NCBI RefSeq assembly: GCF_002897035.1
Contig: NZ_BAUX01000011.1
Coordinates: forward strand, 62,001 to 126,000
From: Methylopila sp. Yamaguchi
GTDB lineage: Bacteria; Pseudomonadota; Alphaproteobacteria; Rhizobiales; Methylopilaceae
Reading direction: 5' to 3'
DNA length: 64,000 nt
Position 1 is the first letter of the stretch; each line of letters opens with the position of its first letter. Position numbers and translations under genes: made by a program. The notes below the pieces were generated by a model. The model saw only the letters and a list, made by a program, of their open reading frames with translations. It was not told the origin of the DNA and searched no databases. This document shows, piece by piece, positions 3,720 to 48,212 of the stretch.

Positions 3720-5219
3720 TCACGCCGCGGCCGGCGCGCTCCGCGCTCGCCGCACGAGCCGGATCAGCGGCGGCGCGAACCAGATCGCAAGCGTCGCGAT
3801 CCCGCAGGCGGCGGCGATCGGGCGCTCGAAGAAGGCGAGGAACGAGCCTTCGGACTTGATCATCGAGGTGACGAAATTCTCCTCAAGCATCGGCCCGAGC
3901 ACGATGCCGAGGATGCACGGCGCAATCGGGATGTCGTTCTCCTCCATGATGAAGCCGAGCACGCCGAAGCCGAGCATCAGCACCACGCCATAGGCGGCGT
4001 TGTTGGTAGCGAAGGCGCCGACGATGCAAAACGCCAGGATCGCAGGCATCAGCAGGTTGCGCGGCACCCTGAGGATCTGCTTGGCAGCTTTGATCGCCGC
4101 CCAGCCTAGCGGGATCATCGCCACATTCGCCAGGATGAAAATGATGAACACCGCGTAGATCATCTGCGGGTTGTTGATGAAGATCGTCGGGCCGGGGTTC
4201 AGGCCCTTTATGTAGAGCACGCCGATCACCACCGCCGTGATCGAGTCGCCGGGGATCCCGAAGACCAGCGCCGGCACCCAAGCCCCGGCGAGCGCGGCGT
4301 TGTTCGCCGAGGTGCTCTCGATGATGCCCTCGACATGGCCGGTCCCGAACTTCTCCGGAGTTTTCGAGAATTTGCGGGAGGTCGCGTAGGACACCCAGGC
4401 GGCGATGTCCGCGCCGGCTCCCGGCAAGGCGCCGATCGCGGTCCCCATCACGTTGCCGCGAAGCTGCTGCGGCCAGTACTTGACGAACATCCGACCCCAG
4501 CCGGTGAAAAGGTTCCCCACGGCGGCCTGCGGCGCCGACCAGCCGGCCGTGCCGTGAACCATGACGCGCAGCACTTCCGACACCGCGAACAGGCCGATCA
4601 TCGCCGGGATGAAGTCGACGCCACCCATCAGGTCGACGCTGCCGAAGGTGAAGCGCGGCACGCCGGCGGGGTTGTTGAGCCCGACGGTCGCGATCAGCAG
4701 GCCGAGGAACAACGAGACCAGCCCCTTGGTGGCGGAGCCCGATCCTATGAACACCGCGCAGGTGAGGCCGAGCAGAGCGAGCCAGAAATACTCGAAGGAC
4801 GAGAACTTGAGCGCGACTTCGGCCAGCATCGGCGCGCCAATGATCAGCACCGCTGTGCCGAACAGGCCGCCAAGCGCGGAGAAGAACAGGTTGGCCCCGA
4901 GCGCGATCTCGCCCTCGCCCTTGCGGGTCATGGCGTAGGCCTCGGAGGTGTAGGCGGCGGAGGCTGGGGTTCCGGGAATGCGCAGCAGCGTGCCGGGGAT
5001 GTCGCCGGCGAAGATCGCCATGGCCGAGCACGAGATCATCGCGCCAACCGCTGTGATCGGATCCATGAAGAACGTCACCGGCACCAGCAGCGCGATCGCC
5101 ATGGTGGCGGTGAGCCCCGGTATCGCCCCCACGAACAGGCCGAAGGCGGCGGCGAGGCCGATGACCAGCAGGACATGCCCTTGAAACACGAGCCCGAAGG
5201 CGGCTTCGATCGCCTGCAT
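3720..5219 (-). CDS. tctA: Tripartite tricarboxylate transporter, large permease TctA
   Basis: A 499-residue, highly hydrophobic permease with about 11-12 membrane helices and the TctA hallmark GxxPGLTATMAIALLVP near the N-terminus (GAIPGLTATM) and again GALPGAGADIAAW in the second half. It is the main channel subunit of a TTT (Bug-type) importer for carboxylates. The ATG at 5219 was chosen because it gives normal family length and follows tctB with a 12-base gap. It is the last gene of tctC-tctB-tctA. The imported acid is not predictable. Confidence 0.93.
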   Translation of the reverse strand: MQAIEAAFGLVFQGHVLLVIGLAAAFGLFVGAIPGLTATMAIALLVPVTFFMDPITAVGAMISCSAMAIFAGDIPGTLLRIPGTPASAAYTSEAYAMTRKGEGEIALGANLFFSALGGLFGTAVLIIGAPMLAEVALKFSSFEYFWLALLGLTCAVFIGSGSATKGLVSLFLGLLIATVGLNNPAGVPRFTFGSVDLMGGVDFIPAMIGLFAVSEVLRVMVHGTAGWSAPQAAVGNLFTGWGRMFVKYWPQQLRGNVMGTAIGALPGAGADIAAWVSYATSRKFSKTPEKFGTGHVEGIIESTSANNAALAGAWVPALVFGIPGDSITAVVIGVLYIKGLNPGPTIFINNPQMIYAVFIIFILANVAMIPLGWAAIKAAKQILRVPRNLLMPAILAFCIVGAFATNNAAYGVVLMLGFGVLGFIMEENDIPIAPCILGIVLGPMLEENFVTSMIKSEGSFLAFFERPIAAACGIATLAIWFAPPLIRLVRRARSAPAAA

Positions 5220-15389: not shown

Positions 15390-16538
15390 TCAGCGGATGA
15401 GGATCGCGCGCCTCAGATGCTCCGCGACCAGCGCTGTGTCGTCGAGGCCTGCGATGTCCCTCAGTCGCAGGACAGCCAGGATCGCCTGCTCGATCTGCGG
15501 CGCCGAGGTGCGCTTCACTGATCCCGCCTCGGCGCCCCTGCCCTGCGCGATCACCGACGAGACGTAGTAGCGGTAGACCACGCCCTTCCGGTTCGTAGCG
15601 CTGCTCGGAGTCATCGGATGCCCACGATCGTCGATCAGCCTTCCGAGCAACAGCGCGCCAGAGGCCGCTCGACTGGTTGTCTGACCGCTGCGGTTCGCCG
15701 CGATCCTCCCTTGCACCGCCTCGAACAGTGTTGGGTCGACGATCGGAGGATGCTCACCGGGATAGCTGCGGCCCTTGTGGTTGATCTCCCCGAGATAGAC
15801 CCGGTTCGCCAGCAGATGCGCGAGAGGTCCGTTTGTCAGCGGGACACCGCCGGCGACACCGCCTGACTTGAGGATGCGCGTCCGCGTGACGACGCCCTGC
15901 TCCCTGAGCTCTCGCTGCAGCGCCGAAAGCGACCCGAGCGCGAGGTAGCGCTCGAAGATCAGCCGGACGGTCGCGGCCTCCGCCTCGTCGATCTGGAGCT
16001 TCTTCGCCTCGACGCGGTAGCCGAGTGGCACCACCCCGCCGACCCAGATGCCCCGCTTCTTCGACGCCGCGATCTTGTCGCGGATGCGCTCGCCGGTGAC
16101 CTCGCGTTCGAACTGCGCAAACGACAGCAGCATGTTGAGCGTCAGCCGCCCCATGCTCGTCGTCGTGTTGAAGGACTGCGTCACAGACACGAACGACACG
16201 CCGCTGGCGTCGAACAGCTCGACCAGTTTGGCGAAGTCCGCAAGCGAGCGCGTCAGGCGGTCGACCTTGTCTACCACGATGACGTCCACCCCGCGCGACC
16301 GAACCAGCTCGAGCAGCCGCTGCAACGCCGGACGCTCCATCGAGCCGCCGGAGAAGCCGCCGTCAGAAAACACGCCGTTACGAACGAGCTTCCACCCCTC
16401 CCCCGCCCGGCTGCGCACGTAAGCCTCGGCCGCCTCCCTCTGAGCGTCGAGCGAGTTGAAGTCCTGCTCCAGCCGGTGGTCGGTTGAGACGCGGGTGTAG
16501 ACCACGCAGCGGCGCACGGTCAGGACAGGACGGCTCAC
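15390..16538 (-). CDS. Large serine recombinase (resolvase/invertase), C-terminally truncated by frameshift
   Basis: 382 residues. The resolvase catalytic domain spans about 8-155 with the nucleophile in YTRVSTD (Ser18), and DVIVVDKVDRLTRSL and GERIRDKIAASKKRG follow. A recombinase domain (PLGYRV...VRLIFERYLALGSL) occupies about 165-270. The stop codon TGA directly after RRAILIR breaks it, and the next frame holds the missing tail. The start GTG overlaps the stop of a DUF2924 fragment (GTGA). This pairing is a common mobile module in alphaproteobacteria. It is probably inactive or altered unless the shift is bypassed. Confidence 0.82.
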   Translation of the reverse strand: MSRPVLTVRRCVVYTRVSTDHRLEQDFNSLDAQREAAEAYVRSRAGEGWKLVRNGVFSDGGFSGGSMERPALQRLLELVRSRGVDVIVVDKVDRLTRSLADFAKLVELFDASGVSFVSVTQSFNTTTSMGRLTLNMLLSFAQFEREVTGERIRDKIAASKKRGIWVGGVVPLGYRVEAKKLQIDEAEAATVRLIFERYLALGSLSALQRELREQGVVTRTRILKSGGVAGGVPLTNGPLAHLLANRVYLGEINHKGRSYPGEHPPIVDPTLFEAVQGRIAANRSGQTTSRAASGALLLGRLIDDRGHPMTPSSATNRKGVVYRYYVSSVIAQGRGAEAGSVKRTSAPQIEQAILAVLRLRDIAGLDDTALVAEHLRRAILIR

Positions 16539-21199: not shown

Positions 21200-21213
21200 C
21201 TGACGATCGTCAA
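21200..21213. promoter_or_regulatory. FNR/FixK-like palindrome
   Basis: CTGACGATCGTCAA fits TTGA-N6-TCAA with one mismatch in the left arm. It is in the gap between the divergent quinone oxidoreductase and thioredoxin genes. It is one of a family of near-identical sites between 21 and 29 kb. Confidence 0.55.
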
Positions 21214-21366
21214 TTCTTCAGACCTTCTTTCGATGCTCGCGGTCGGGCTGAGGGTGCAAGCGTCGATGCGTAATCTTCGCTGCGACGCGTATCTGGCGAC
21301 GACGTGCGGCCAGTGGTCGTCGCGCCAAGGACGACGAACCGGCGGGGATCCGGTCGCGCTCGGTTC

Positions 21367-21380
21367 CTGACGCTCGTCAA
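21367..21380. promoter_or_regulatory. FNR/FixK-like palindrome
   Basis: CTGACGCTCGTCAA: the TGAC and GTCA arms are intact, with a different four-base centre (GCTC) from most of the other copies. The thioredoxin start is about 300 bases downstream, so it would drive a long leader or an unrecognised transcript. Confidence 0.45.
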
Positions 21381-21672
21381 TGCCGGCCCGGCGTCAGTTC
21401 GGTACAAGGCGCTGCAGATTGCCGGCTCAACCGGCCGCCCGATCGATACGACCGCGCTGCGTCCGTTCGGTCCGGGATGATCCGGTGATGCGGCGGGCGA
21501 GGTGATCGTGGCGGCCGGGACCTTGCCTGCCTTCTCGGCCATCACGGAAGGGATCGCGCGCCGGAGCCAGATTTCATCGAGACGCCTGGCGGCGCCTCTC
21601 GGCAGAGGTCCGCCAAATACAGCGCACGGCTGCGAATGCCCCAGCCCGCCGCGGCGTGGCAAGGAGACCCAG

Positions 21673-22152
21673 ATGTCCGACTCGACCGGCGACCGCCAGC
21701 CCGAAGCATCTTCAGAGATGGTGTTCGTCGCCTGTCCGGTCGATGCATCCGTGAACCGCGTCCCCCGCGCGAAACTCGACCGCGGCCCGAAATGCGGGAC
21801 GTGTCATGCCCCCCTTTTCGTGGGGAAGGTCGTCGATCTCACCGGCGCCATCTTCGATGCGCACGCGCTCAGGAGCGACCTTCCGGTCGTGATCGACTTC
21901 TGGGCGGAATGGTGCGGTCCATGCCGGATGATGACGCCCAATTTCGAGAGGGCGGCGCCGCGGCTGGAGCCGCGGGTGCGGCTCGGCAAGCTCGACACCG
22001 AGGCGGAGCCCGCCATTGCGGGGCGCTACGGGATCCGCAGCATTCCGAGCATGATCATGATCAGGAAAGGCGAGGAGATCGCTCGCACGTCAGGCGCTAT
22101 GCCGACGGCCGCGATCGTCGATTGGGTCGAGCAGGCGCTGAAGCGGACCTGA
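21673..22152 (+). CDS. Thioredoxin 2 (TrxC-like)
   Basis: 159 residues from an ATG behind AAGGAGA. An N-terminal zinc-finger-like extension is followed by a thioredoxin fold with the active site WCGPC (Cys81, Cys84) and the cis-proline loop IRSIPSMIMI. In E. coli TrxC the extension has two CxxC pairs. Here the second is present (CGTC, 41-44) but the first is reduced to a single Cys21 (ACPVDA), so normal zinc binding is doubtful. It reduces protein disulfides in the cytoplasm under oxidative stress. Confidence 0.93.
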   Translation: MSDSTGDRQPEASSEMVFVACPVDASVNRVPRAKLDRGPKCGTCHAPLFVGKVVDLTGAIFDAHALRSDLPVVIDFWAEWCGPCRMMTPNFERAAPRLEPRVRLGKLDTEAEPAIAGRYGIRSIPSMIMIRKGEEIARTSGAMPTAAIVDWVEQALKRT

Positions 22153-22297
22153 CGGCCCCCCTGCACGCTCTGTGCCGGTGGCGAAAGCGGCAAGCGCCGC
22201 TCTGGGTCATTCGCGTCCGTCGATCTGCCGAGCACGGATGCGCGCGCCCAAGGAAAGCGCTTGCGGCTCGATCGTCGCCGATTGGCGGCGGCCCGCC

Positions 22298-22311
22298 CTG
22301 ACGACCGTCAA
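22298..22311 (+). promoter_or_regulatory. FNR/FixK-like palindrome upstream of the histone-fold gene
   Basis: CTGACGACCGTCAA, centre at 22304.5, is 60 bases before the ATG of the histone-fold gene. TACATG at 22332-22337 lies where a -10 element would be if the site acts from -41.5, giving a short leader that includes the AGGGAGG ribosome site. Confidence 0.6.
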
Positions 22312-22364
22312 GGCCGGGCGGGGCTGCGTCGTACATGTTCGACTGTCCAGCAGGGAGGTCCGCC

Positions 22365-22808
22365 ATGGCGACCATTCATCGACTCGAGAAGATGTTTCGG
22401 CGGGCGGGCGATCTCGCCCTCGACAAGAGCGATCTCGAACGGCTCGAGAACTTCCTTCGCCGCAAGGTCCAGGACCTCGTCCTTCGCGGCGAGGCGAACG
22501 CCAAGGCCAACGGCCGCGATGTGGTCGAGCCCTGGGATCTCCCCGTCACCAAGGGGCTCCAAGAGACGATTCACCGGTTCCGGCAGATCGACGCCGAACT
22601 GCAGCTCACGGACTACCTTAGCGGGCTGACAGCGTTGCCGCCAACCGATCTGGCTATCGGCGACAATACCGGGGCCCGGTTGCCTGAACTTGCTGGAGGA
22701 TTGTGCCTCGCCCTCGCGGAAACGTTCAGGATCACCGACCCGGATCTCAGAAATCCGGCCGCCAGGGATTGGGACCGGGCGTATCGTTTGTTCGACGTGC
22801 TCCTCTAG
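22365..22808 (+). CDS. DUF1931 family histone-fold protein
   Basis: 147 residues from the ATG at 22365 with AGGGAGG 7 bases upstream. The N-terminal half reads like a histone-fold helix set (MATIHRLEKMFRRAGDLALDKSDLERLENFL, here quoted in parts: KMFRRAGDLALDKSD, ANAKANGRDVVEPWDLPVTK), and the second half (IDAELQLTDYLSGLTALP onward) repeats a similar pattern, as in the pseudodimer of the DUF1931 family whose Aquifex member has a histone fold. DNA binding is a reasonable inference but unproven for this family. An FNR-like site lies immediately upstream. Confidence 0.82.
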   Translation: MATIHRLEKMFRRAGDLALDKSDLERLENFLRRKVQDLVLRGEANAKANGRDVVEPWDLPVTKGLQETIHRFRQIDAELQLTDYLSGLTALPPTDLAIGDNTGARLPELAGGLCLALAETFRITDPDLRNPAARDWDRAYRLFDVLL

Positions 22809-22883
22809 CGGCGGACTGTCGCTCCACAGGAAACGATTGGGCCGAAGCCGATCGACGGGTGAATGCCTGCTTCGCCCCGCCGC

Positions 22884-23888
22884 CTAGCGTAGGTTGCCCG
22901 CATTGAGAGGTGGCGCGCCGCCGCCTTTCCCCAGGCGCGGGAGCACCTCTCGGCCGATCTCCTCCAGCACCTCGCCGGCATCGCGTCGTCCATACTTGAG
23001 GTTGAGGATGACGTGATTGACGCCGACGCCGGCGAGTTCATTCAGGAAGGCGAGCATGAAGTTGCGGCCGGCCCGGAACCCGAGATGAATCGCCCGGGGG
23101 GGCTCCGCGGGTTCGTCGGCTAGGTCGACATAGAGCGACTGCACGAAGGGCTTGAACACGCCTGGCGACCTAACCTCCACGGTTGAGCGCCATTTCGCGA
23201 CCAGCTCCGCCTGCTGCGCGAGACCACGTGGATAGGTGATCCAACCGTCCGCATTCTCGGCGATCCACTCAAAGCTTTGGCGGCTCGAACCGGTGATCAG
23301 GATCGGCAGGCGAGCGACAGGTTTGGGCACGAGGTCCGCCGTCCCCGTCAGCGCGCCATAGCTCGACTGGATGCGGGGGAATTCCTCCGTGAGGACCCTG
23401 CGGATCGTCGACAGGTTGTCGCGAAAGAGGACGTCGCGCCGATCCCAGTCGACGCCGAACGCCGGAAACTCGACCGGGCGGTCGCCGGAGGCGACCCCGA
23501 GGACGAACCGGCCGCCGGTCAGCTGGTCGACCGATGCGGACGCCTTCGCGGTGTGGAGCGGGTGGCGCAAGGGAAGAATGATCGATCCGGTCGCAAGCGC
23601 GATCGTCGAGGTGTGCGCAGCGATCCAACCCAGCCACACCCAGGGATCGAAGATCTGGCCCAGATCTCCGAAACTCGGATCCCGCAGAGGCACGTCTCGT
23701 GTCCAGAGGCCTGCGAAGCCGAGCTCCTCGGCGCGCCGAGCGAGCCGCGGCTGATCGCGCATGCTGGGCTCGTCCCTTTCGAAAGCCTCGATAGGGAAGA
23801 ACACTCCGAGCGATAGTCGGCCAGGCGAGAACATGCGCCCAAAACCGGGGGAATCACTTGTGGACGCAGCTTTGTTTGCTTTCAGCAT
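22884..23888 (-). CDS. LLM class flavin-dependent oxidoreductase
   Basis: 334 residues in a luciferase-like TIM-barrel. LSLGVFFPIEAFERD near the start, ATGSIILPLRHPLHTAKA, and GRFVLGVASGDRPVEFPAFGVD are LLM motifs. FMN or F420 with an unknown substrate is expected. The ATG at 23888 lacks a ribosome site, and so does a second ATG at 23834. The FNR-like box and a CAGAAT hexamer upstream place the transcription start at about 23889, so the message may be leaderless. It is convergent with the histone-fold gene. Confidence 0.88.
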   Translation of the reverse strand: MLKANKAASTSDSPGFGRMFSPGRLSLGVFFPIEAFERDEPSMRDQPRLARRAEELGFAGLWTRDVPLRDPSFGDLGQIFDPWVWLGWIAAHTSTIALATGSIILPLRHPLHTAKASASVDQLTGGRFVLGVASGDRPVEFPAFGVDWDRRDVLFRDNLSTIRRVLTEEFPRIQSSYGALTGTADLVPKPVARLPILITGSSRQSFEWIAENADGWITYPRGLAQQAELVAKWRSTVEVRSPGVFKPFVQSLYVDLADEPAEPPRAIHLGFRAGRNFMLAFLNELAGVGVNHVILNLKYGRRDAGEVLEEIGREVLPRLGKGGGAPPLNAGNLR

Positions 23889-23923
23889 GATGCATCATTC
23901 TGGTTGGGCCGGGCATCGACGCC

Positions 23924-23937
23924 ATGACGATCGTCAG
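23924..23937 (-). promoter_or_regulatory. FNR/FixK-like palindrome upstream of the LLM oxidoreductase
   Basis: On the minus strand the site reads CTGACGATCGTCAT, centre 23930.5, exactly 42.5 bases before the ATG at 23888. CAGAAT (23902-23897 on the minus strand) lies where a -10 element should be. The same geometry is found at 24994-25007. Confidence 0.62.
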
Positions 23938-24508
23938 TTGTTTGACGGGATGGGAAGCTGCGACATCAGCCTCGTGCGAGGTCCGCAGGGTCTGATCACC
24001 GACACGCGATAGCCGCGTGCGGCCATCGCGGCGACCCGAGCCAAGCGCCCAAGTGTGGAAGCCGCTGAGCGCGCGGTCCGCCCACGAAGGGCCTCGAAGC
24101 TCGGGCGAACGGATTCGTGCGGGAGGCTGGATTCCCGGCGGGAGCTCGGCCACCGCCAGAAACCCAGTTTGGGGCCATGTGCGGACGCCAAGCCTCTCCC
24201 CGACATGCCCCCGTGTAGCTCCACAGCCCGCGGGGCTGACACCCAACCGTCGCCCCATCGCCGTGTTGGTCTCGCCCTCAGCCGACCGCTCAGCCTCAGC
24301 GGCGCGCCCGGCCTCGATCTGCTCATGAGCGACGGCCAACGACGAGGACACGGCGGTGGACGTCGCGCGGGCTTTCATCGCCCGCACAGCAAGTTCGACC
24401 TCGCCCGCGGTGTTGTCTTCGCGTTCTCGATCACGTTCGTGATCGCATCTGCGCCGTACTCGACGCCGAGACTATGTCGATCAGCCCAAAAGAGGTTTCC
24501 CTCGTATC
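23938..24508. other. Intergenic region without a recognisable gene
   Basis: These 570 bases hold open frames on both strands, but none shows a known motif, a good ribosome site or consistent third-position GC. The minus strand has an Ala/Glu-rich stretch around 24230-24400 that might be decayed coding sequence. Nothing is called. Confidence 0.4.
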
Positions 24509-24958
24509 TCACCCGACCGCGCTCCGGGCGGCCGCAAGGTGGCGTGCGATCTCCTCGACCCGGAGCCCAATCAGATCCTTGGCGATCGATCGCGATTGCA
24601 GCCTGATCTGAACAGGCAGCGCTTCGCGCAGGAACGCTAGGAAAGCCGGCGGCGACACGATCGTCAGCTGATGCGCCCAATGCGCCGCGTTGATCTCGAC
24701 GAGCGCGGCGGCGATCTCATCCGCAAAGCGTTCCTTAGCCAGGCGATGCCAGTCCGTCTGCTCCATGGCGCTGCGTTGACGCCCGACGCTTTGAAAGGTG
24801 CGGCCGGGACGGTCGGCGCCCTGTTGGCCGGTGGGTGGATTGTCGGGCGCCTGAAACACGCTGCGCAGTTGCAGGCGCGGTCGCAGCAACGAGCCGAAAT
24901 CGTCGAAAAGCAGGGCTTTTCGGCTGTCACAGACCAGGATCGTTTTGCCTTTTCTCAT
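24509..24958 (-). CDS. Host-attachment (Host_attach / baeRF-type) family protein
   Basis: 149 residues from the second of two adjacent ATGs (24961 and 24958). The N-terminal strand KTILVCDSRKALLFDD and the C-terminal half (HQLTIVSPPAFLAFLREALP, then KDLIGLRVEEIARHL) match the family first described as required for attachment to host cells, which has an archaeal release-factor-like fold. Molecular function is unknown. There is no ribosome site. An FNR-like box lies 42.5 bases upstream of the second ATG with CACAAT between, so a leaderless message is likely. Confidence 0.78.
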   Translation of the reverse strand: MRKGKTILVCDSRKALLFDDFGSLLRPRLQLRSVFQAPDNPPTGQQGADRPGRTFQSVGRQRSAMEQTDWHRLAKERFADEIAAALVEINAAHWAHQLTIVSPPAFLAFLREALPVQIRLQSRSIAKDLIGLRVEEIARHLAAARSAVG

Positions 24959-24993
24959 CATGGGCGATTGTGATGCGACCCTGCGGATCCGCT

Positions 24994-25007
24994 TTGACGA
25001 TCGTCAG
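24994..25007. promoter_or_regulatory. FNR/FixK-like palindrome between two divergent stress genes
   Basis: TTGACGATCGTCAG, the best match to TTGA-N6-TCAA among the set, centre 25000.5. On the minus strand CACAAT (24972-24967) and the host-attachment gene start follow at the same distances as at the LLM gene. On the plus strand CAAAAT (25027-25032) lies at a similar distance before the gene at 25127. It may therefore work in both directions. Confidence 0.65.
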
Positions 25008-25126
25008 TTTTGCTCCGCCGAGTCGCCAAAATGGCCCGTCGCGCCCCACCGACGAGCTAGCTTTCTTTCGGCGAGCCTGCCCAGATAAGAGGCTGGCAAG
25101 CTGCACTTGAAAGGAAAGCGTCGCTG

Positions 25127-25621
25127 ATGAGTTTTCTTCCCCATGTGTCGGCGCTGACGCGCGAGCGGATCGCACGGGAGTTCGACGACCTTGGCCCCGA
25201 TGCCTGCATGATGGAAATCGTCGACGCCATGCGGCGCGACAATCCGGAGCTTTTGGAGATGGCGCAGAAATGCGCCGAGGATGTCGGCGAGGCTCCCAGG
25301 GTGATGGCCGGCTTCGGCATGTTCTACAAGGCGCTGGCGTTCGAGGCCGCGGTCGCGCTGGGACATCAGACGATGAGCGCGCTCCCGCGGGTCGCTCCCG
25401 AGACGCGGGAAAAGATCGTCCGAGAGATCGACGAGCATGGCGCCGAAGCGTTCACGGTCCGCTCCCTGGACAATCTCGAGAGGACCAATCCCGAACTGAT
25501 GCAGATGGCGCATCAGTTCGGGGCTCGGCACGCGGACTATCTTGGCGTCATGCAGGGCTTCGCCCTGATGCACCGGAGCCTCGTCGTCCAGTCCGGCGCC
25601 GACAAGTCCAAACTGCATTGA
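25127..25621 (+). CDS. Unknown protein made of two tandem copies of a 71-residue domain
   Basis: 164 residues, soluble, no signal peptide, ATG behind AAAGGAAAG. Residues 4-74 and 86-156 align without gaps at an offset of 82: LPHVSALTRERIAREFDDLG with LPRVAPETREKIVREIDEHG, then MRRDNPELLEMAQ with LERTNPELMQMAH, then VMAGFGMFYKAL with VMQGFALMHRSL. Each copy looks all-helical. I do not recognise the family. It sits behind an FNR-like box shared with the divergent host-attachment gene, so a stress or low-oxygen role is likely. Confidence 0.85.
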   Translation: MSFLPHVSALTRERIAREFDDLGPDACMMEIVDAMRRDNPELLEMAQKCAEDVGEAPRVMAGFGMFYKALAFEAAVALGHQTMSALPRVAPETREKIVREIDEHGAEAFTVRSLDNLERTNPELMQMAHQFGARHADYLGVMQGFALMHRSLVVQSGADKSKLH

Positions 25622-25675
25622 TCGTCGACCGTCGCCGGGCTTCGCGCCCGGCGGCGCGCGGCGCGAGGCGAGACG

Positions 25676-26134
25676 TCACGGCTTGTACTGGAACTCCGGC
25701 AACTTCCCGAGAGCCTCCTTCGAACCGCCGGCCAGCGTGATCTTGGCGCCGTCATCGCTGATGTTAAGGCTGGCGTAGGGCACCGCAACCAAGTGGCCAC
25801 CTAGGCCGAGGAAGCCGCCCACCTGAAGAACGGCGAACAGCTCCCGCTCTTTTGTGATGATGAGATCGTCCAGCGAGCCGATTTTTTCGCTCTTGTCGTT
25901 CTCGACCTTCGCGCCGATGAGCTTGGACGCCTGATAGCCTTGCCCGACGGTTTTTACGTCGACGACTACGAGACGAACGGCTTGGGCTTGGGCGGCGCCA
26001 ACCAACCCTGCAAACATTCCGGCCGCCGCCCACAGAACATAAGCTGAGGCGGCGCGGCGATTTAAGGCAGAAACGGGCGCAGAGACGCCGCATCTGGCTC
26101 GGCCGACATGTTGCGATTGCTTTGCGGATGCCAT
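25676..26134 (-). CDS. PRC-barrel domain protein, exported or membrane-anchored
   Basis: 152 residues. An N-terminal basic segment of about 27 residues leads to a hydrophobic segment (AASAYVLWAAAGMFAGLVGAAQAQA), a late signal peptide or anchor. The PRC-barrel follows: KLIGAKVENDKSEKIGSLDDLIITK and LGLGGHLVAVPYASL. Such proteins are common envelope stress proteins in Hyphomicrobiales. The ATG at 26134 has GAGAGGAGC upstream. An FNR-like box lies 78 bases before it. Confidence 0.88.
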   Translation of the reverse strand: MASAKQSQHVGRARCGVSAPVSALNRRAASAYVLWAAAGMFAGLVGAAQAQAVRLVVVDVKTVGQGYQASKLIGAKVENDKSEKIGSLDDLIITKERELFAVLQVGGFLGLGGHLVAVPYASLNISDDGAKITLAGGSKEALGKLPEFQYKP

Positions 26135-26205
26135 GGCATGCTCCTCTCTTTCAGGATCTAATCTGGCGGGTGGAGCGACAGTGACCCTTTGTGGGGGCCA
26201 TTGCG

Positions 26206-26219
26206 TTGACGACCGTCAG
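26206..26219 (-). promoter_or_regulatory. FNR/FixK-like palindrome upstream of the PRC-barrel gene
   Basis: TTGACGACCGTCAG (plus-strand reading), centre 26212.5. Acting from -41.5 it would give a transcript starting near 26171 with a 37-base leader. The rest of the 293-base gap to the antiporter holds an open frame ending at 26231 on the minus strand, with a thioredoxin-like FGVPQFSFDG piece that may be a remnant. Confidence 0.58.
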
Positions 26220-26427
26220 TTCCTCGAGGAAGAGCTATCGCGCCGCCGCCGGGAGGAGCCGATCGCTGGCCTCTTCAAGTCCGAACAGGCCTTTGGGCGC
26301 GCCGGTGAACTCGGCCGTCTCCGCCGCCGGACCCGCATTCGGCGGCACTCCGTCAAAAGAAAATTGCGGAACGCCAAAGCGAAGTTCGCGACTGACGCGC
26401 GCCTGAGCCTGTCTTTTGAAGATGAGT

Positions 26428-28134
26428 TCATATGCCGACGCGGTCGCGTAGCTCTGGGCTAAGTTCGGCCCGCATAGCGGTGACGACGCGCCCTGCTTCC
26501 TCCTGGGTCAGCCCGGAAAGCAGAAGGGTTTGGTCGGCGAGGCCGAGGCCGGCCGCCAGATTCTCGGGAAATACGACGCTTGCGCCAGCCTCGACGAAAT
26601 CTTCGACGCCACGATCGTCGTTGGTGCTGACGATGCACGCGACGGTCGGGTTCTGCCCTCGGGCGAAGGCCACGATGCGCTCGACGATCGGGCGATGGTC
26701 GAAGGTGACGATCACCAATCTGACGCTCGTGATGCCGGCCGCCGAGAGAATCCGGTGGTGGCCGGCGTCGCCGTGAACCACATTGTGGCCGAGGCGCTGA
26801 GCTTCCTTGAAGCGCGCATGGTCGGACTCGATCAGGATGTGCGGGAGCTTGGCGGCTTCCAGAGCCGTCGCCACCAGCCGGCCGACGCGGCCGCAGCCGC
26901 ACAGCAGGATATGTCGATCAAGTCCCGCGGCTTTAGCGCGTAGCTCCGTTTCTCCGGCGGTCATCCGCGCGCGCCAGCGCTCGGAAAACCGTGCGAACAT
27001 GGCGTTGCGCTGGATGAGCAACGGCGCGAGCCCCATGGTCAGCGCCAGAGCGATCAGCACGGGCTGGCCGATCGCTACGGGCATCAGCCCGGCCGCCATG
27101 GCCAGCGTCAACAGGAGCAGCCCGAACTCTCCGCCGTGACCGAGGATGACCGCCATCCGGAGCGAGGTCGCGAACGGACGGCCGAGCAGCGTGCAGACGG
27201 CGAGAACGACGATCGGCTTTCCGACAAGGAACACGGCCGCCCAGGCGAGAATGACTCCCGGATGCTCGAGGATCAGACTGGGATCGAGCGACATGCCGAT
27301 GGTGATGAAGAACAGCCCGACCAGCACATCGCGGAAGGGCCGGATGTCGTCCTCCACCCGATGACGGAAATCGCTCTCGCCGATCACCATGCCGGCGATG
27401 AAGGCGCCGACCGGCAGCGCGAGGCCGGCGAGATGAACAAGATACGCGGCGCCCAGAGCCGCAAGGAGCGCGGCGAGAAGAAACAGGTCGCTGGAGCGAG
27501 ATTTCACCACTCCGGCGAACAGCGCGCGCACCACCGGGCGTGAGATCATTGCGGCGGCGACGAGTGCGAGGGCGGCGAGCCCGAGATGCCGCAAGAGGTC
27601 GAGCGGCGCGACGGAGTCCTGTCTCGACCAGCTGTCGAGCAGCACGAGCAAGGGAATGGTCGCCAGGTCTTGGAACAGCAGGATGCTTATCGCGCCCCTG
27701 CCATGATGCGTACTGAGCTCGCCCTGTTCGGCGAGCTGCTTGGCGGCGATCGCGGTCGACGACATGGCAACTGCGCCGCCGAGCAGCACGCAAAGCCGCG
27801 GGTCGAGACCGAACACCCATAACGGCGCCGCCACCGCCGCCATTGTCGCGCCGACCTGCAGGCCGCCGGCGAGAAGCACGTCGTACCGCGCCGCGAGCAG
27901 CGTCGACGGCGAGAACTCCAGCCCCACCATGAACATCAGGAAGACGAGGCCGAGCTCGGCAAGGAAGCGCGTCTCGTCGCCCGCCGCGATCAGGTCAAGA
28001 GCATGCGGGCCGATCGCCACGCCGGCGACCAGATAGCCCATGACCGCGGGCGCCCCCCATGCCGCGAACAAGCCGACGGCGAGGGCCGAAGCGAGGACCA
28101 AGAGCAGGCTCTGGGTGAGCAGGGCGTCATTCAT
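26428..28134 (-). CDS. Cation:proton antiporter of the CPA2/Kef type with RCK domain
   Basis: 568 residues. Residues 1-385 form about twelve membrane helices with CPA2 motifs (GYLVAGVAIGPHALDLI, GLVFLMFMVGLEFSP, GALPVGAFIAGMVIGESDFR-like region). The C-terminus has an NAD-binding TrkA-N/RCK domain beginning HILLCGCGRVGRLVATALE. It is likely to exchange potassium or sodium for protons, protecting against electrophiles or pH stress. It starts 101 bases after the BON gene on the same strand, so it could share the FNR-like promoter at 28982. Confidence 0.92.
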   Translation of the reverse strand: MNDALLTQSLLLVLASALAVGLFAAWGAPAVMGYLVAGVAIGPHALDLIAAGDETRFLAELGLVFLMFMVGLEFSPSTLLAARYDVLLAGGLQVGATMAAVAAPLWVFGLDPRLCVLLGGAVAMSSTAIAAKQLAEQGELSTHHGRGAISILLFQDLATIPLLVLLDSWSRQDSVAPLDLLRHLGLAALALVAAAMISRPVVRALFAGVVKSRSSDLFLLAALLAALGAAYLVHLAGLALPVGAFIAGMVIGESDFRHRVEDDIRPFRDVLVGLFFITIGMSLDPSLILEHPGVILAWAAVFLVGKPIVVLAVCTLLGRPFATSLRMAVILGHGGEFGLLLLTLAMAAGLMPVAIGQPVLIALALTMGLAPLLIQRNAMFARFSERWRARMTAGETELRAKAAGLDRHILLCGCGRVGRLVATALEAAKLPHILIESDHARFKEAQRLGHNVVHGDAGHHRILSAAGITSVRLVIVTFDHRPIVERIVAFARGQNPTVACIVSTNDDRGVEDFVEAGASVVFPENLAAGLGLADQTLLLSGLTQEEAGRVVTAMRAELSPELRDRVGI

Positions 28135-28235
28135 GGCGGGTTGCGGTTCCCAGGCTGGCCGCCTGCGGCGTCAGCGGGTCAGACGTTCGGCCCGACGCAT
28201 CCGCCGGGCCGTCGCGAACCGAAGCCGCCTCAAGA

Positions 28236-28889
28236 TCAGATGCGAATCGTGATGCGGTTTTCGACCTTGGTGACGCCGGGGGCGCGCCAGGCCGCGCGTT
28301 CGGCTTCCTGCCGCTCGGCCCAAGATCTGACGGAGCCCCTGAGGATCACCTCGCTCCCGTGAGCTTCAACGGTGACCTGGTCGGCGTCGACTTCCGCGCT
28401 GCGGCGAAAGGCGTCCTCGATCTTGGCCTTGATCTCCGTCGCGCTGACGCGCGGCTTGAGGACGATCATGTTGCTGACGCCCTTGATGCCGCGAACGCGC
28501 CGCACGGCGTCTTCCGCGCGCGCGCGCTGGTAGTTCCATTCCGCACTGCCTTCGAGCGTGACCCAGCCGTCCTTCACCACCACCTTCATGGTCTCGTGAG
28601 AGAAGGGCAGCTCGTTTTTAAGCGCCGCCACCGCGTCGCGCGCGAGCTCCGGATCGGGCCGTTCGCTGCCGCTCGGCAGACGCACTACGATGTCGTTGGC
28701 CACGCCCATCACGCCGCTGACGCGCTTCACGTCACGTTCGGCCTGCCATTTCTGCGTAAAGCTGCGGACGAAGCCGGTCAGGGTGACGACCCCGCCTTTG
28801 ACCGACACGGCGATGTCGGTCGCGTCGATATCGGCATCCCATTTGAGTTCGGCTTCCACGTCGCGTTTGATGTCGGCGTCGGATTTCAT
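28236..28889 (-). CDS. Protein with three BON domains
   Basis: 217 residues built of three consecutive BON domains (about 3-70, 77-145 and 150-217), each with a VxVxxGxVTLxG strand: ISVSVKGG-type [20 protein letters not shown] and [10 protein letters not shown]. There is no signal peptide, so it is cytoplasmic, unlike OsmY, and resembles hyperosmotic/general stress BON proteins of rhizobia. An FNR-like site lies 99 bases upstream. Confidence 0.92.
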
Positions 28890-28981
28890 CTCGCTCTCCC
28901 GTGCTGTCGATCAGCTTTGGAACCGCAGGCGCGGTCGTGGGCTGCGTAGCCTCAGGCTGGCTTGGACGTCGCGGGGGCGCC

Positions 28982-28995
28982 TTGACGGTCGTCAG
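28982..28995 (-). promoter_or_regulatory. FNR/FixK-like palindrome upstream of the BON gene
   Basis: TTGACGGTCGTCAG in plus-strand reading, centre 28988.5, 99.5 bases before the BON start. Acting from -41.5 it would give a leader of about 58 bases. No clear -10 element was seen. Confidence 0.55.
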
Positions 28996-32324: not shown

Positions 32325-34724
32325 CTACTCGGCGGCCTCACGTCGCTCCGCAGGCTCCAGCGCGGCGGCGACGGCCTCGTCGACGCGCTCCAGCCAGACG
32401 AACTCGAGCTGGTCGCGCGCCTCCTTCGGGATGTCGTCGAAGTCCCGCCGGTTTCGCGCGGGCAGCATCACCCGCTTCAGGCCCGCGGCGGCGGCCGCCA
32501 CGACCTTCTCCTTGATGCCGCCGACGGGCAGAACGAGCCCCCGCAGCGAAATCTCGCCCGTCATCGCCGTGTCGCTGCGGACCGTGCGTCCCGTCAGCAG
32601 CGAGGCCAGCGCCACATACATCGCGACGCCGGCGCTCGGGCCGTCCTTCGGGGTCGCGCCCGCCGGCACATGGACGTGGATGTCGCTCCGTTCGAACATC
32701 CCCGGCTCCACGCCAAGCGCGTCGGCGGTGCTCTTCGTTAGGCTGAGGGCAGCCTGCGCGCTCTCGCGCATGACGTCGCCCAGCTGGCCTGTGAGGGTGA
32801 ACGCGCCCTTGCCGGCGCTCCGAGTCGCCTCGATGAACAGGATGTCGCCGCCGACCGGCGTCCAAGCGAGGCCGGTCGCGACGCCCGACGTGCTGGTGCG
32901 CATGGCGACTTCGCTCTCGAACCGCGCCGGCCCGAGGATCGCCACGAGATCGTCGACGCCGATCCGCACCTGCGTCGCGCTTCCGTCGGCGATGCGCAGC
33001 GCCGCGTTGCGCAGCGCCCGTCCGATCTCGCGCTCGAGCCCGCGCACGCCCGCCTCGCGGGTGTAGTCATGCACGATTCGGCGCAGCGCCTCGGCATCGA
33101 TCGAGGCCTGATCCGGCGTCAGCCCGTTCGCCTCAAGCTGGCGGCGCACGAGGTACCGCGCGGCGATCTCCAGCTTCTCCCCCTCGGTGTAGCCGGCGAG
33201 GCTGATGACCTCCATGCGGTCGCGCAAGGGGCCAGGGATCGTGTCCAGCATGTTGGCGGTGGCGATGAACGAGACCTTCGAAAGGTCGAAGGGCACGCCG
33301 AGATAGTTGTCGCGGAAGGCGCTGTTCTGCTCGGGATCCAGCACCTCCAGCATGGCGGCGGACGGATCGCCCTGGATGCCGCGGCCCATCTTGTCGATCT
33401 CGTCCAGCATCATCACGCAGCCGCGCGAGCCCGCCTTCCGGATGCCCTGGACGATGTTTCCGGGCAGCGCCCCGACGTAGGTGCGGCGGTGTCCGCGGAT
33501 CTCGGCCTCGTCGTGCACGCCGCCCAGGCTGACCCGCACGAACGGGCGGTCGAGCGCACGGGCTATCGACTGGCCGAGCGAGGTCTTGCCGACGCCGGGC
33601 GGCCCGACGAAGCAGAGGATCGGAGCCTTCCCGTTCGGCGCGAGCTTGCGAACCGCGAGATACTCCACGATGCGGCTCTTGATCTTCTCGAGGCCGAAAT
33701 GGTCCTCGTCGAGGATGCGGCGCGCTTCGCCGATATCGATCAGCTTCGCTTCGGGCGCCTTCCAGGGCAGCTCGATCAGCCAGTCGAGATAGGTGCGGAT
33801 CATGCCGCTCTCCGCGGCGGCTTCAGGCAGGCGTTCGTAGCGGCGCAGCTCCTTGCGGGCCTGGTCGTCGACCTCCTTAGGCATTTCGGCTTTGGCGATC
33901 GCGGCCGAGAGCTCCGCCACCTCCTGCGCTTTGCCTTCGTCTTCGCCGAGTTGCCGCTGGATAGCGGCCATCTGCTCGCGCAGCACGGCTTCACGCTGGC
34001 GCTCGTCGAACGTCGCCTTGGTCTGACGCCCGATCTCCTGGCTGATCCGCAGAACCTCGATGCGCTCGGCAAGCAGCCGGGACACCTTCTCCATTCGCGC
34101 GGCGAGATCGATGGTCTCGAGGATCTCCTGTTTCTGCTGCGGCGAGACGTCCAGGTACGCGGCCGCAAGATCGGCGAGCGCCGCGGGCGAAGCCGCCTGT
34201 TGGATGGCGGCCACAAGTTCCGTCGGCGCCTGAGGCAGGAGGTTCACGGCCTCCAGAGCCTGCGCCTGGAGGTGCAGGAACCGGGCTTCGATCTCCGGAG
34301 ACCGGCCGTCCGGCTCAGGGATCTGCAGCACGCGGGCCACGAGGAAGGGGGTCCCGGGATAGTAGTCGAGCGCGCGCATGCGCTGCACGCCCTGCGCGAC
34401 GATGTGGTGCGAGCCGTCCGGCGCGGTGACGTAGCGCAGGATATTGGCGACCGTTCCGACCGTGTGCAGGTCGCCGGGCGCGGGCTCGTCCACCTCCGGA
34501 TCGCGCTGCATGACGACGCCGATCTGCCGCTCCTCCCGGATCGCCTGCTGGATTGCGGCGACGCTCTGGACGCGGCCGATCGCGAACGGCGCGACGAGGT
34601 TTGGGAACAGGACGGAGTTGCGCACCGGCAGGATGATCATCCCGTCGGAGGGAAGGTCGGGGCGCGCGCCGCCGGCAGTTGGGGCGTCGGCTGCGGCGGG
34701 GCCGCTCTGATGTTCCATGCTCAT
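32325..34724 (-). CDS. lon: ATP-dependent protease Lon
   Basis: 799 residues from the ATG at 34724 (a second ATG is at 34718; a TTG at 34736 overlaps the Hsp20 stop). Domains: N-terminal substrate domain (about 25-220, starting MIILPVRNSVLFPN), AAA+ ATPase with GPPGVGKTS and MMLDEIDKMG, and the serine-lysine protease domain with PKDGPSAGV and GIKEKVVAA. It degrades misfolded and regulatory proteins. The immediate coupling to a small heat-shock gene suggests a stress-specific Lon rather than the clpX-linked housekeeping copy. Confidence 0.93.
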   Translation of the reverse strand: MSMEHQSGPAAADAPTAGGARPDLPSDGMIILPVRNSVLFPNLVAPFAIGRVQSVAAIQQAIREERQIGVVMQRDPEVDEPAPGDLHTVGTVANILRYVTAPDGSHHIVAQGVQRMRALDYYPGTPFLVARVLQIPEPDGRSPEIEARFLHLQAQALEAVNLLPQAPTELVAAIQQAASPAALADLAAAYLDVSPQQKQEILETIDLAARMEKVSRLLAERIEVLRISQEIGRQTKATFDERQREAVLREQMAAIQRQLGEDEGKAQEVAELSAAIAKAEMPKEVDDQARKELRRYERLPEAAAESGMIRTYLDWLIELPWKAPEAKLIDIGEARRILDEDHFGLEKIKSRIVEYLAVRKLAPNGKAPILCFVGPPGVGKTSLGQSIARALDRPFVRVSLGGVHDEAEIRGHRRTYVGALPGNIVQGIRKAGSRGCVMMLDEIDKMGRGIQGDPSAAMLEVLDPEQNSAFRDNYLGVPFDLSKVSFIATANMLDTIPGPLRDRMEVISLAGYTEGEKLEIAARYLVRRQLEANGLTPDQASIDAEALRRIVHDYTREAGVRGLEREIGRALRNAALRIADGSATQVRIGVDDLVAILGPARFESEVAMRTSTSGVATGLAWTPVGGDILFIEATRSAGKGAFTLTGQLGDVMRESAQAALSLTKSTADALGVEPGMFERSDIHVHVPAGATPKDGPSAGVAMYVALASLLTGRTVRSDTAMTGEISLRGLVLPVGGIKEKVVAAAAAGLKRVMLPARNRRDFDDIPKEARDQLEFVWLERVDEAVAAALEPAERREAAE

Positions 34725-34732
34725 GACGCGTT

Positions 34733-35140
34733 TCAATCCGCTTTGGCCAGCCCGAAGACGAGGCAGCCCTGCGCGGCGGCCCGGCGAACGCCGGCGTAGC
34801 GGCCGGCGGGAAGAGGGATGCGGCGTTCGAAACGGCCTTGCGGCAGCTCGAGACGGTGGATGACCGCGTCGCGCAGCTCCGGCGGCAGCGTCCGGCGCCC
34901 GGCGACAACGAGCGCGCCGTCCTCGATCGCAGCTTCGACCTCGTCGGGGTCGACCCCCGGAAGGGCTATGAGGATCAGCACCTCGCGCGCGGTCTCGATC
35001 ATGTCGACCGGCGGCTCCCAGGACGGCGCCCGCGGCGTCGCGGTCTTGAGCGCAAAGACCTGCCGGTGCATGCGCTCGGCGCGCGCGAGGCTCTCGACCG
35101 CTTCGGCGAGCATCCAGTTGAGCGGGTCTCGGTTCGACAC
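34733..35140 (-). CDS. Hsp20/alpha-crystallin family small heat-shock protein
   Basis: 135 residues from a GTG with AAGGAACG upstream. The alpha-crystallin domain is at about 45-130: WEPPVDMIETAREVLILIALPG, then ELPQGRFERRIPLP. The canonical C-terminal IxI tail is not obvious, which would limit oligomer size. It holds unfolding proteins for refolding or degradation. It is eight bases upstream of, and transcribed with, lon. Confidence 0.88.
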   Translation of the reverse strand: MSNRDPLNWMLAEAVESLARAERMHRQVFALKTATPRAPSWEPPVDMIETAREVLILIALPGVDPDEVEAAIEDGALVVAGRRTLPPELRDAVIHRLELPQGRFERRIPLPAGRYAGVRRAAAQGCLVFGLAKAD

Positions 35141-48198: not shown

Positions 48199-48212
48199 GT
48201 GACGATCGTGAA
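48199..48212 (-). promoter_or_regulatory. FNR/FixK-like palindrome, weaker match, upstream of the ABM operon
   Basis: GTGACGATCGTGAA has the same TGACGATCGT core as the sites at 21-25 kb but with GTGA in place of GTCA in the right arm. The centre, 48205.5, is 76 bases before the ABM gene start, nearly the distance seen at the PRC-barrel gene (78). Confidence 0.4.

Follow-up and report, generated by a model that had tools for sequence, protein, structure and literature searches.

In Methylopila sp. Yamaguchi, seven palindromes built on TGAC-N4-GTCA lie among a group of stress-protection genes at positions 21,200 to 28,995 of the window analysed here (the whole stretch of 64,000 bp, bases 62001-126000 of contig NZ_BAUX01000011.1, or C11, in a genome of 4.42 Mb and 39 contigs). 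These sites are most probably the operators of a FixK-like activator of the Crp/Fnr family that is part of a stress-protection island spread by horizontal transfer, a reading to which we assign a probability of about 0.75 on sequence grounds. A Crp/Fnr (FixK)-type stress regulon is supported by conserved sites at orthologous genes, by a spacing typical of class II promoters, and by the finding that most genomes with the FixK-like regulator encode it amid these genes. An earlier sequence-only reading had proposed a shared low-oxygen or redox regulon; its Crp/Fnr stress regulon survives, while the low-oxygen or redox signal is unsupported, since the six aligned regulators described below share no invariant cysteine and their clade carries Ser or Thr in place of the redox-active Cys183 of FixK2.

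The palindrome occurs eight times in the window, whereas 100 dinucleotide shuffles averaged 0.68 copies and never exceeded 3, and the same half-sites at other spacings from 0 to 15 give only 0 to 2 matches each. The seven sites are real: they start at 21200, 21367, 22298, 23924, 24994, 26206 and 28982, exactly where they had been reported, and all are intergenic according to the simple codon-usage gene caller used for all gene and intergenic calls. The eighth exact copy, at 17650, was absent from the earlier reading; it lies within a UvrA-like gene, is probably incidental, and was dropped as an operator. The proposed fit to TTGA-N6-TCAA holds only loosely, as none of the seven sites matches it exactly; compared with TTGAY-N4-RTCAA, six have one mismatch and the site at 23924 has two. 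A weaker site suggested at 48199 was rejected as a firm site, because it carries two mismatches, and with that many allowed some 28 matches would arise in the window by chance (57 are seen), and because no clear counterpart was found in G007, a second genome of the genus. Read toward the downstream gene, all seven sites conform to CTGACGnnCGTCA(A/T), with A in six and T in the one before the LLM oxidoreductase gene.

Across the genome, TGAC-N4-GTCA is found 81 times, against 9 for the reversed pattern of the same palindrome, which served as control, and TGACG-NN-CGTCA 35 times against 0. Fifteen of these 35 copies are intergenic and 20 are in genes, while the form with the outer Y and R occurs 13 times, 11 of them intergenic (P = 4e-7, given that a fraction of 0.82 is called as coding). 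Thus, the short core is unspecific and the extended 14-mer is specific. The sequence-only reading had named, as one result that would refute it, a motif equally common inside genes; the bare core is indeed common there, and the extended form, with 2 of 13 in genes, is not. Outside the window, contig C16 carries TTGACGACCGTCAA between genes for DUF308 (HdeD-like), AhpC-type and DsbA-type proteins and genes for DnaJ and a MerR_2-domain (CbpM-like) protein, and TTGACGATCGTCAA before the gene for DnaK, which is followed by that for GrpE. Classical TTGAT-N4-ATCAA sites form a separate set, several of which adjoin universal-stress-type genes (one checked for its family, the others read from the sequence) and an FnrN-like gene. 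Mixed sites, TTGACGTGCGTCAA and TTGACCGAGATCAA, are present at OmpW and HemN genes.

The analysis of promoter geometry used a manual compilation of 46 island sites, drawn from 12 genomes or records. Sites within genes, sites without a single clear target and near-identical copies from Az39 were excluded, as were NGR234 14047 and 14120, L094 7159 and 8947, L093 9853, G289 4094, 5005 and 9598, G190 13864, G007 69165, all five C19 sites of Rhizobium sp. BK399, and the C1 and C3 sites of the Methylopila genome itself. The A+T content peaks 22-27 bases past the 14-mer, and a -10 matrix scores highest at offset 22 (z 4.69), a value that 0 of 5000 permutations reached; since many of the 46 sites are mutually homologous, the z-scores overstate their independence. 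When the four sites between divergent genes are removed, the remaining 42 one-sided sites give z 4.58 at offset 22 on the gene side and 1.83 on the far side, and a 28-site subset picked by hand gives z 4.06. The same peak appears in the nine sites of this genome alone (z 3.0) and in the 30 sites from outside this genome and G007 (z 4.05). The -10 hexamer thus lies 29 bases (7+22) from the site centre, on the gene side. In class II operators of Crp/Fnr proteins, the 14-bp inverted repeat is centred at -41.5, which puts its centre about 29 bases from the -10 hexamer. The observed distance would therefore place the centre of the sites at -41.5, so that the predicted spacing fits the geometry of class II activation.

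The regulator had correctly been placed outside the window; the best candidate is encoded on the minus strand at C16:29829-30536, downstream of the DUF308/HdeD-like, AhpC-type and DsbA-type genes with the same operator. It is one of three PF13545 matches in the genome with, as judged by eye, an ETVSR recognition helix; the other two are an FnrN-like protein with N-terminal cysteines on C11 and a FixK-like protein on C3, while the C16 gene lies next to the C16 sites. A profile built from six island regulators was searched against 385 genomes of the class and scored 322 bits for the Methylopila protein, 255 for G320 and 235 each for G289 and G190, followed by 180 and a continuum. These three genomes, found by the protein profile alone, served as a blind test, although the starts of some of their regulators are approximate (match or caller boundaries); G017 was already a row of the profile. 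In a 58-row tree, ten island regulators form one clade (100/100), recovered in all 200 bootstrap trees. PF13545, PF00325 and PF00027 match above cut-off for the Methylopila and G190 regulators. The NCBIfam FixK equivalog is the best family, but at 102 bits for the Methylopila protein and 135 bits for a 192-residue piece of the NGR234 regulator, the matches fall far below its cut-off of 300.

The closest solved relative of the clade profile is the FixK2 crystal structure 4I2O (E 7e-46), of which Glu196 and Arg200 are kept in the clade, while Thr194 and Leu195 of the recognition helix are not matched. At position 194, all ten clade members carry Ala or Ser, whereas 47 of the 48 other rows carry Thr (two of them read by eye from the sequences); at position 195, eight members have Val and two have Ala, and Val is also found in three other rows. 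FixK2 Leu195 contacts a thymine that adjoins the adenine of position 7, positions 6 and 7 being neighbours in the box, according to the part of PMC9104804 that was available; the contacted base would thus be the first T of the box. Among the 46 island sites, 25 have C and 21 have T there. The position of Cys183 is occupied by Ser in nine members and by Thr in one. Neither an invariant cysteine nor the ligand cysteines of the FNR 4Fe-4S cluster are found in the six aligned island regulators, which rules out a classical FNR, and with both these and the redox cysteine of FixK2 missing, a low-oxygen trigger is unsupported.

Five of the ten regulator genes of the clade have an upstream site at a distance of about 130-208 bp. 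Genes for a PAS histidine kinase and a FixJ-like response regulator stand by the regulator in two genomes, G320 and G190 (the two loci are L230 2970-5352 and L232 10434-12813). In G190, the response regulator adjoining the island regulator is 43% identical to a FixJ, and the kinase beside it is 42% identical over 250 residues to the kinase adjoining that FixJ. These pairs would be in keeping with a cascade of the FixLJ-K kind that uses a different sensor. No FixLJ-like pair was seen beside the Methylopila regulator, and the Azospirillum regulator gene is preceded by that of a large hybrid kinase.

The sites recur at corresponding genes in other alphaproteobacteria, even though the gene order is rearranged. 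DUF1931 is present in two of 13 genomes of the genus, the one studied here and G007 (82% identity), and any match was found in only three of 41 genomes searched. G007 has the same genes in a different order, with sites before the DnaK, DnaJ, BON-antiporter, HdeD-like, PRC, thioredoxin and DUF1931 genes, and its regulator (44% identity) is encoded apart from the island, between a DJ-1-like gene and UvrA. In Rhizobium sp. BK399 the regulator is present and sites precede the PRC, HdeD-like, BON, DnaJ and DnaK genes, while regulator, genes and sites occur together on plasmid b of the laboratory strain S. fredii NGR234 (regulator near 70.4-71.1 kb of pNGR234b) and on two plasmids of Azospirillum. 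Individual sites are kept as well. G007, Glycocaulis and Devosia all have the DUF1931 site in the equivalent position, as does Rhizobium BK399 with one mismatch; TGAC-N4-GTCAT before the LLM gene is kept in four genomes, including G007, Rhizobium BK399 and Glycocaulis; and the proximal thioredoxin site has counterparts in G007 (2178420), Rhizobium BK399 and Glycocaulis. Sites also precede the PRC genes of G007, Rhizobium BK399 and, as a variant, NGR234, and the BON-antiporter site is an identical 14-mer in G007 with variants in Rhizobium BK399 and NGR234. No such site is present at an actinobacterial DUF1931 locus (L095, 52% identity, from an Actinomycetota metagenome-assembled genome). A search of plasmids for DUF1931 returned 22 records, all below 60% identity and mostly from Rhodococcus; the one Azospirillum record leads to the Az39 island.

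Taken together, we infer binding and activation by the island regulator as follows. A FixK-like dimer would bind CTGACG-NN-CGTCAA, the centre of which lies 41.5 bp upstream of the predicted transcription start, and would recruit sigma-70 RNA polymerase at the -10 element 22 bases downstream, as in class II activation. Thioredoxin, the DUF1931 histone, the LLM oxidoreductase, Host_attach, the PRC-barrel protein and the BON-antiporter pair would be switched on jointly, and with them the HdeD-like-AhpC-DsbA unit, DnaJ with its MerR_2-domain (CbpM-like) partner, and DnaK. In members with an upstream site, the regulator probably feeds back on itself. Its input may come through its expression or through a partner, such as the FixLJ-like pair of two genomes, rather than through an iron-sulfur cluster.

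The loci of the ten clade members were compared with 29 control loci of other FixK/Fnr-type regulators (12 plasmid loci, 15 obtained in the search of the class and two of the Methylopila genome), which are high-ranking regulator matches rather than a random choice; the compared loci are of unequal length. Nine of the ten clade loci have 3-9 of 13 Methylopila island genes near the regulator, including 3, 5 and 6 at the blind-test loci of G320, G289 and G190, whereas 28 of the 29 controls have none and the remaining one has thioredoxin only. Site type separates the two groups less cleanly: YTGAC-N4-GTCAR is found at 9/10 clade loci and 9/29 controls, strict TGACG-NN-CGTCA at 8/10 and 3/29, and TTGAT-N4-ATCAA at 0/10 and 11/29. 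YTGAY-N4-RTCAR sites number two at G320, six at G289, three at G190 and two at G017, and at these four loci 21 of 26 half-sites have C at position 5, against 25 of 70 near 15 controls (Fisher P = 1.6e-4); the presence of a symmetrical YTGAC site shows no significant contrast (3/4 loci versus 4/15, P = 0.12). The clade is set apart sharply by its gene content, and by its site type in degree.

Several observations weigh against operators served by the island regulator. Glycocaulis and Devosia retain DUF1931 with its site, yet their best regulator matches are ordinary Fnr types, and the regulator locus of G007 has none of the 13 island genes. The regulators of Methylopila, G007, G017 and both Azospirillum plasmids have no site within 700 bp upstream. 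The strict core is absent from two of the three blind-test loci (G320 and G190), one strict core of the Methylopila genome lies at OmpW near its own FixK-like gene, and the loose form YTGAY-N4-RTCAR is found at 21/29 controls as well as at 10/10 clade loci. On the side facing away from the gene, the -10 score has its maximum at another offset (z 2.9 at offset 16). Moreover, FixK2 of Bradyrhizobium uses similar boxes, so that specificities may overlap. A site without such a regulator in two genomes, together with looser sites near ordinary FixK/Fnr genes, makes a shared use of the sites possible.

These points lead to the alternative that the sites are ordinary FixK/FnrN boxes of the resident FixK-like (C3) or FnrN-like (C11) protein, which would place the island in the low-oxygen network of its host, as with FixK2 in Bradyrhizobium, and leave the island regulator as a modulator only. 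This explanation is unlikely, with the following in its favour: the FixK2 box is TTGA/C-N6-T/GCAA and boxed genes dependent on FixK2 include stress genes, as reported in the accessible part of PMC9104804, resident regulators with the ETVSR helix exist in this genome, YTGAC-N4-GTCAR stands near 9 of the 29 control genes and its looser form near 21, and in Glycocaulis and Devosia a site is retained where no island-type regulator was matched. What speaks against it is the lean toward C at position 5, the opposite distribution of the strict core and the classical box, and the lack of island stress genes at 28/29 other loci. In its strongest form, the island-regulator reading would make regulator and operator a private pair, a FixK-derived clade whose recognition helix (Thr194 to Ala/Ser, Leu195 to Val/Ala) and operator (first T to C/T, fifth base C) changed together and which spreads among alphaproteobacteria with a shuffled set of proteostasis and redox genes, each unit carrying its own switch. 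This form can be held only tentatively, at a little under even odds. The two boxes set against each other in this question of a private or a shared operator are CTGACGATCGTCAA and TTGATCCAGATCAA.

It is very improbable that transcription factors of some other family, with a preference for TGACG-NN-CGTCA, are the ones that use the palindrome, a view suggested by the symmetric, GC-rich core and by its many copies in genes, but opposed by the 22-base spacing to the -10 element, which fits class II activation by Crp/Fnr proteins, and by the recurrence of a FixK-like gene within the islands. That the sites arose by chance, or form a dispersed DNA repeat that plays no part in regulation, is scarcely credible: a 120-bp promoter copy on C1 (near 378.4 kb), behind which no thioredoxin gene was seen, could be taken in favour of this view, yet eight palindromes in the window far exceed expectation, the aligned promoters of different genes have little in common beyond the 14-mer and the -10 element, and conservation at corresponding genes in several alphaproteobacterial genera contradicts it.

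Within the window, a pair of predicted operators on the plus strand lies upstream of a thioredoxin-2 type gene (21673..22152, plus strand; PF00085, PF21352). The distal one, CTGACGATCGTCAA at 21200..21213, has no good -10 element where one is expected, and a pair stands at the corresponding place in Rhizobium BK399 (L094 8947/9061); the proximal one, CTGACGCTCGTCAA at 21367..21380, is followed by a -10-like TACAAG at 21403-21408. Nearly 300 bp (21381-21672), partly conserved in G007 and Rhizobium BK399, separate the proximal site from the gene. A 120-bp copy (80%) of this thioredoxin promoter is found at C1:378372-378515 (L027 ~3973-4175) with two CTGACGCCCGTCAA sites; no thioredoxin gene was seen behind it, and it adjoins an old-yellow-enzyme-like gene, a name read from the sequence. 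The histone-fold protein DUF1931 (22365..22808, plus strand; PF09123) is preceded by the predicted operator CTGACGACCGTCAA at 22298..22311 on the same strand, centred 60.5 bp before its start. From site centre to start codon, the distances range from 39.5 to 99.5 bp, except for thioredoxin, which starts 299.5 bp from the proximal site.

The next units are read mostly from the minus strand. The LLM class oxidoreductase (22884..23888, minus; TIGR03571 family) follows the predicted operator CTGACGATCGTCAT, in minus-strand reading, at 23924..23937. A Host_attach/baeRF_family12 protein (24509..24961, minus; PF10116, PF18856) follows a minus-strand copy of CTGACGATCGTCAA at 24994..25007; its additional match to baeRF_family12, a release-factor-like family, makes a role in attachment doubtful. 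The short distances from site to start at the LLM and Host_attach genes imply either almost no leader or a later start codon. The sequence-only reading had listed a duplicated-domain gene among the neighbours of the sites, but the site at 24994 is oriented toward Host_attach and away from it. This gene (25127..25621, plus strand) encodes a protein whose two halves resemble each other and which matches no Pfam or NCBIfam family; homologues are found on pNGR234b and in G007. The PRC-barrel gene (25676..26134, minus; PF05239) is preceded by the predicted operator CTGACGGTCGTCAA on the minus strand at 26206..26219, with a -10-like CACTGT at 26178-26183. Finally, a minus-strand CTGACGACCGTCAA at 28982..28995, with a -10-like CAGCCT at 28954-28959, is the predicted operator of the BON-antiporter pair, which consists of a protein with three BON domains (28236..28889, minus; family match) and a KefB/KefC-like cation:proton antiporter with TrkA_N (26428..28134, minus), below the cut-offs of the KefB and KefC equivalogs.

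Near the island lies a serine recombinase gene (15390..16538, minus; PF00239, PF07508), possibly a mobility gene. A serine recombinase with a similar N-terminus is encoded in G007 (2174009-2175553), adjoining the thioredoxin-DUF1931 part. Genes for Lon protease and Hsp20 stand together at 32325-35140 of the window, with no island-type TGAY-N4-RTCA site upstream.

The closest known parallel is Bradyrhizobium diazoefficiens, where boxed genes dependent on FixK2 include groEL5, hspC2 and genes for a universal stress protein (USP), a host attachment protein and a dnaJ operon, as far as the accessible text of PMC9104804 describes them. In the stress genes bll4634-blr4655, a FixK-family activator likewise acts at 14-bp boxes before chaperone, Hsp20, USP, host-attachment and DnaJ units (PMC9104804, same text). 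FixK2 is induced by FixLJ and carries the redox-active Cys183, whereas the island regulator belongs to a separate clade with Ser/Thr at 183, Ala/Ser at 194 and Val/Ala at 195; in most genomes it is encoded with the stress genes, and its sites lean to (C/T)TGACG-NN-CGTCAA. The FNR/FnrN anaerobox regulon shares the DNA-binding fold, a similar half-site and a small heat-shock protein (sHSP) gene as target, the sHSP of Rhizobium leguminosarum being driven by FnrN in the portion of PMC11784457 at hand. It differs in that the six aligned island regulators lack an invariant cysteine and in that the classical TTGAT-N4-ATCAA sites lie elsewhere in the genome. A comparison of FnrN and FixK proteins in Alphaproteobacteria describes, in its available passages, no group-specific changes at DNA-contacting residues (PMC4999443); the clade would be an exception to this finding, unless its members lay outside the sample of that study. 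The transmissible locus of stress tolerance (tLST), which has ClpK/ClpG, FtsH and YfdX as core genes, is likewise a horizontally spread stress set. It includes HdeD, KefB, thioredoxin and a small Hsp; the available passages of PMC8290217 name a Mer-like orf1 and other inputs, whereas a Crp/Fnr regulator is not named and PRC, BON, DUF1931, LLM and Host_attach genes do not come up in them. Among the matches listed in the openly licensed literature, judged by title and the start of the abstract, no description of the island with its regulator was found.

The palindromes thus appear to mark a mobile stress island with a genuine and conserved regulon of Crp/Fnr type, which resembles the FixK2 stress genes of Bradyrhizobium with a predicted regulator and an operator variant of its own. 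The analysis names a probable regulator and predicts transcription starts, and one predicted switch links the DUF1931 histone and the BON, PRC-barrel, Host_attach, LLM and DUF308/HdeD-like proteins, all of them poorly understood, to chaperones and redox enzymes. As each unit carries an operator, a mobile island may remain one regulon despite its shuffled gene order, and the clade would offer a natural case of specificity change within the FixK family.

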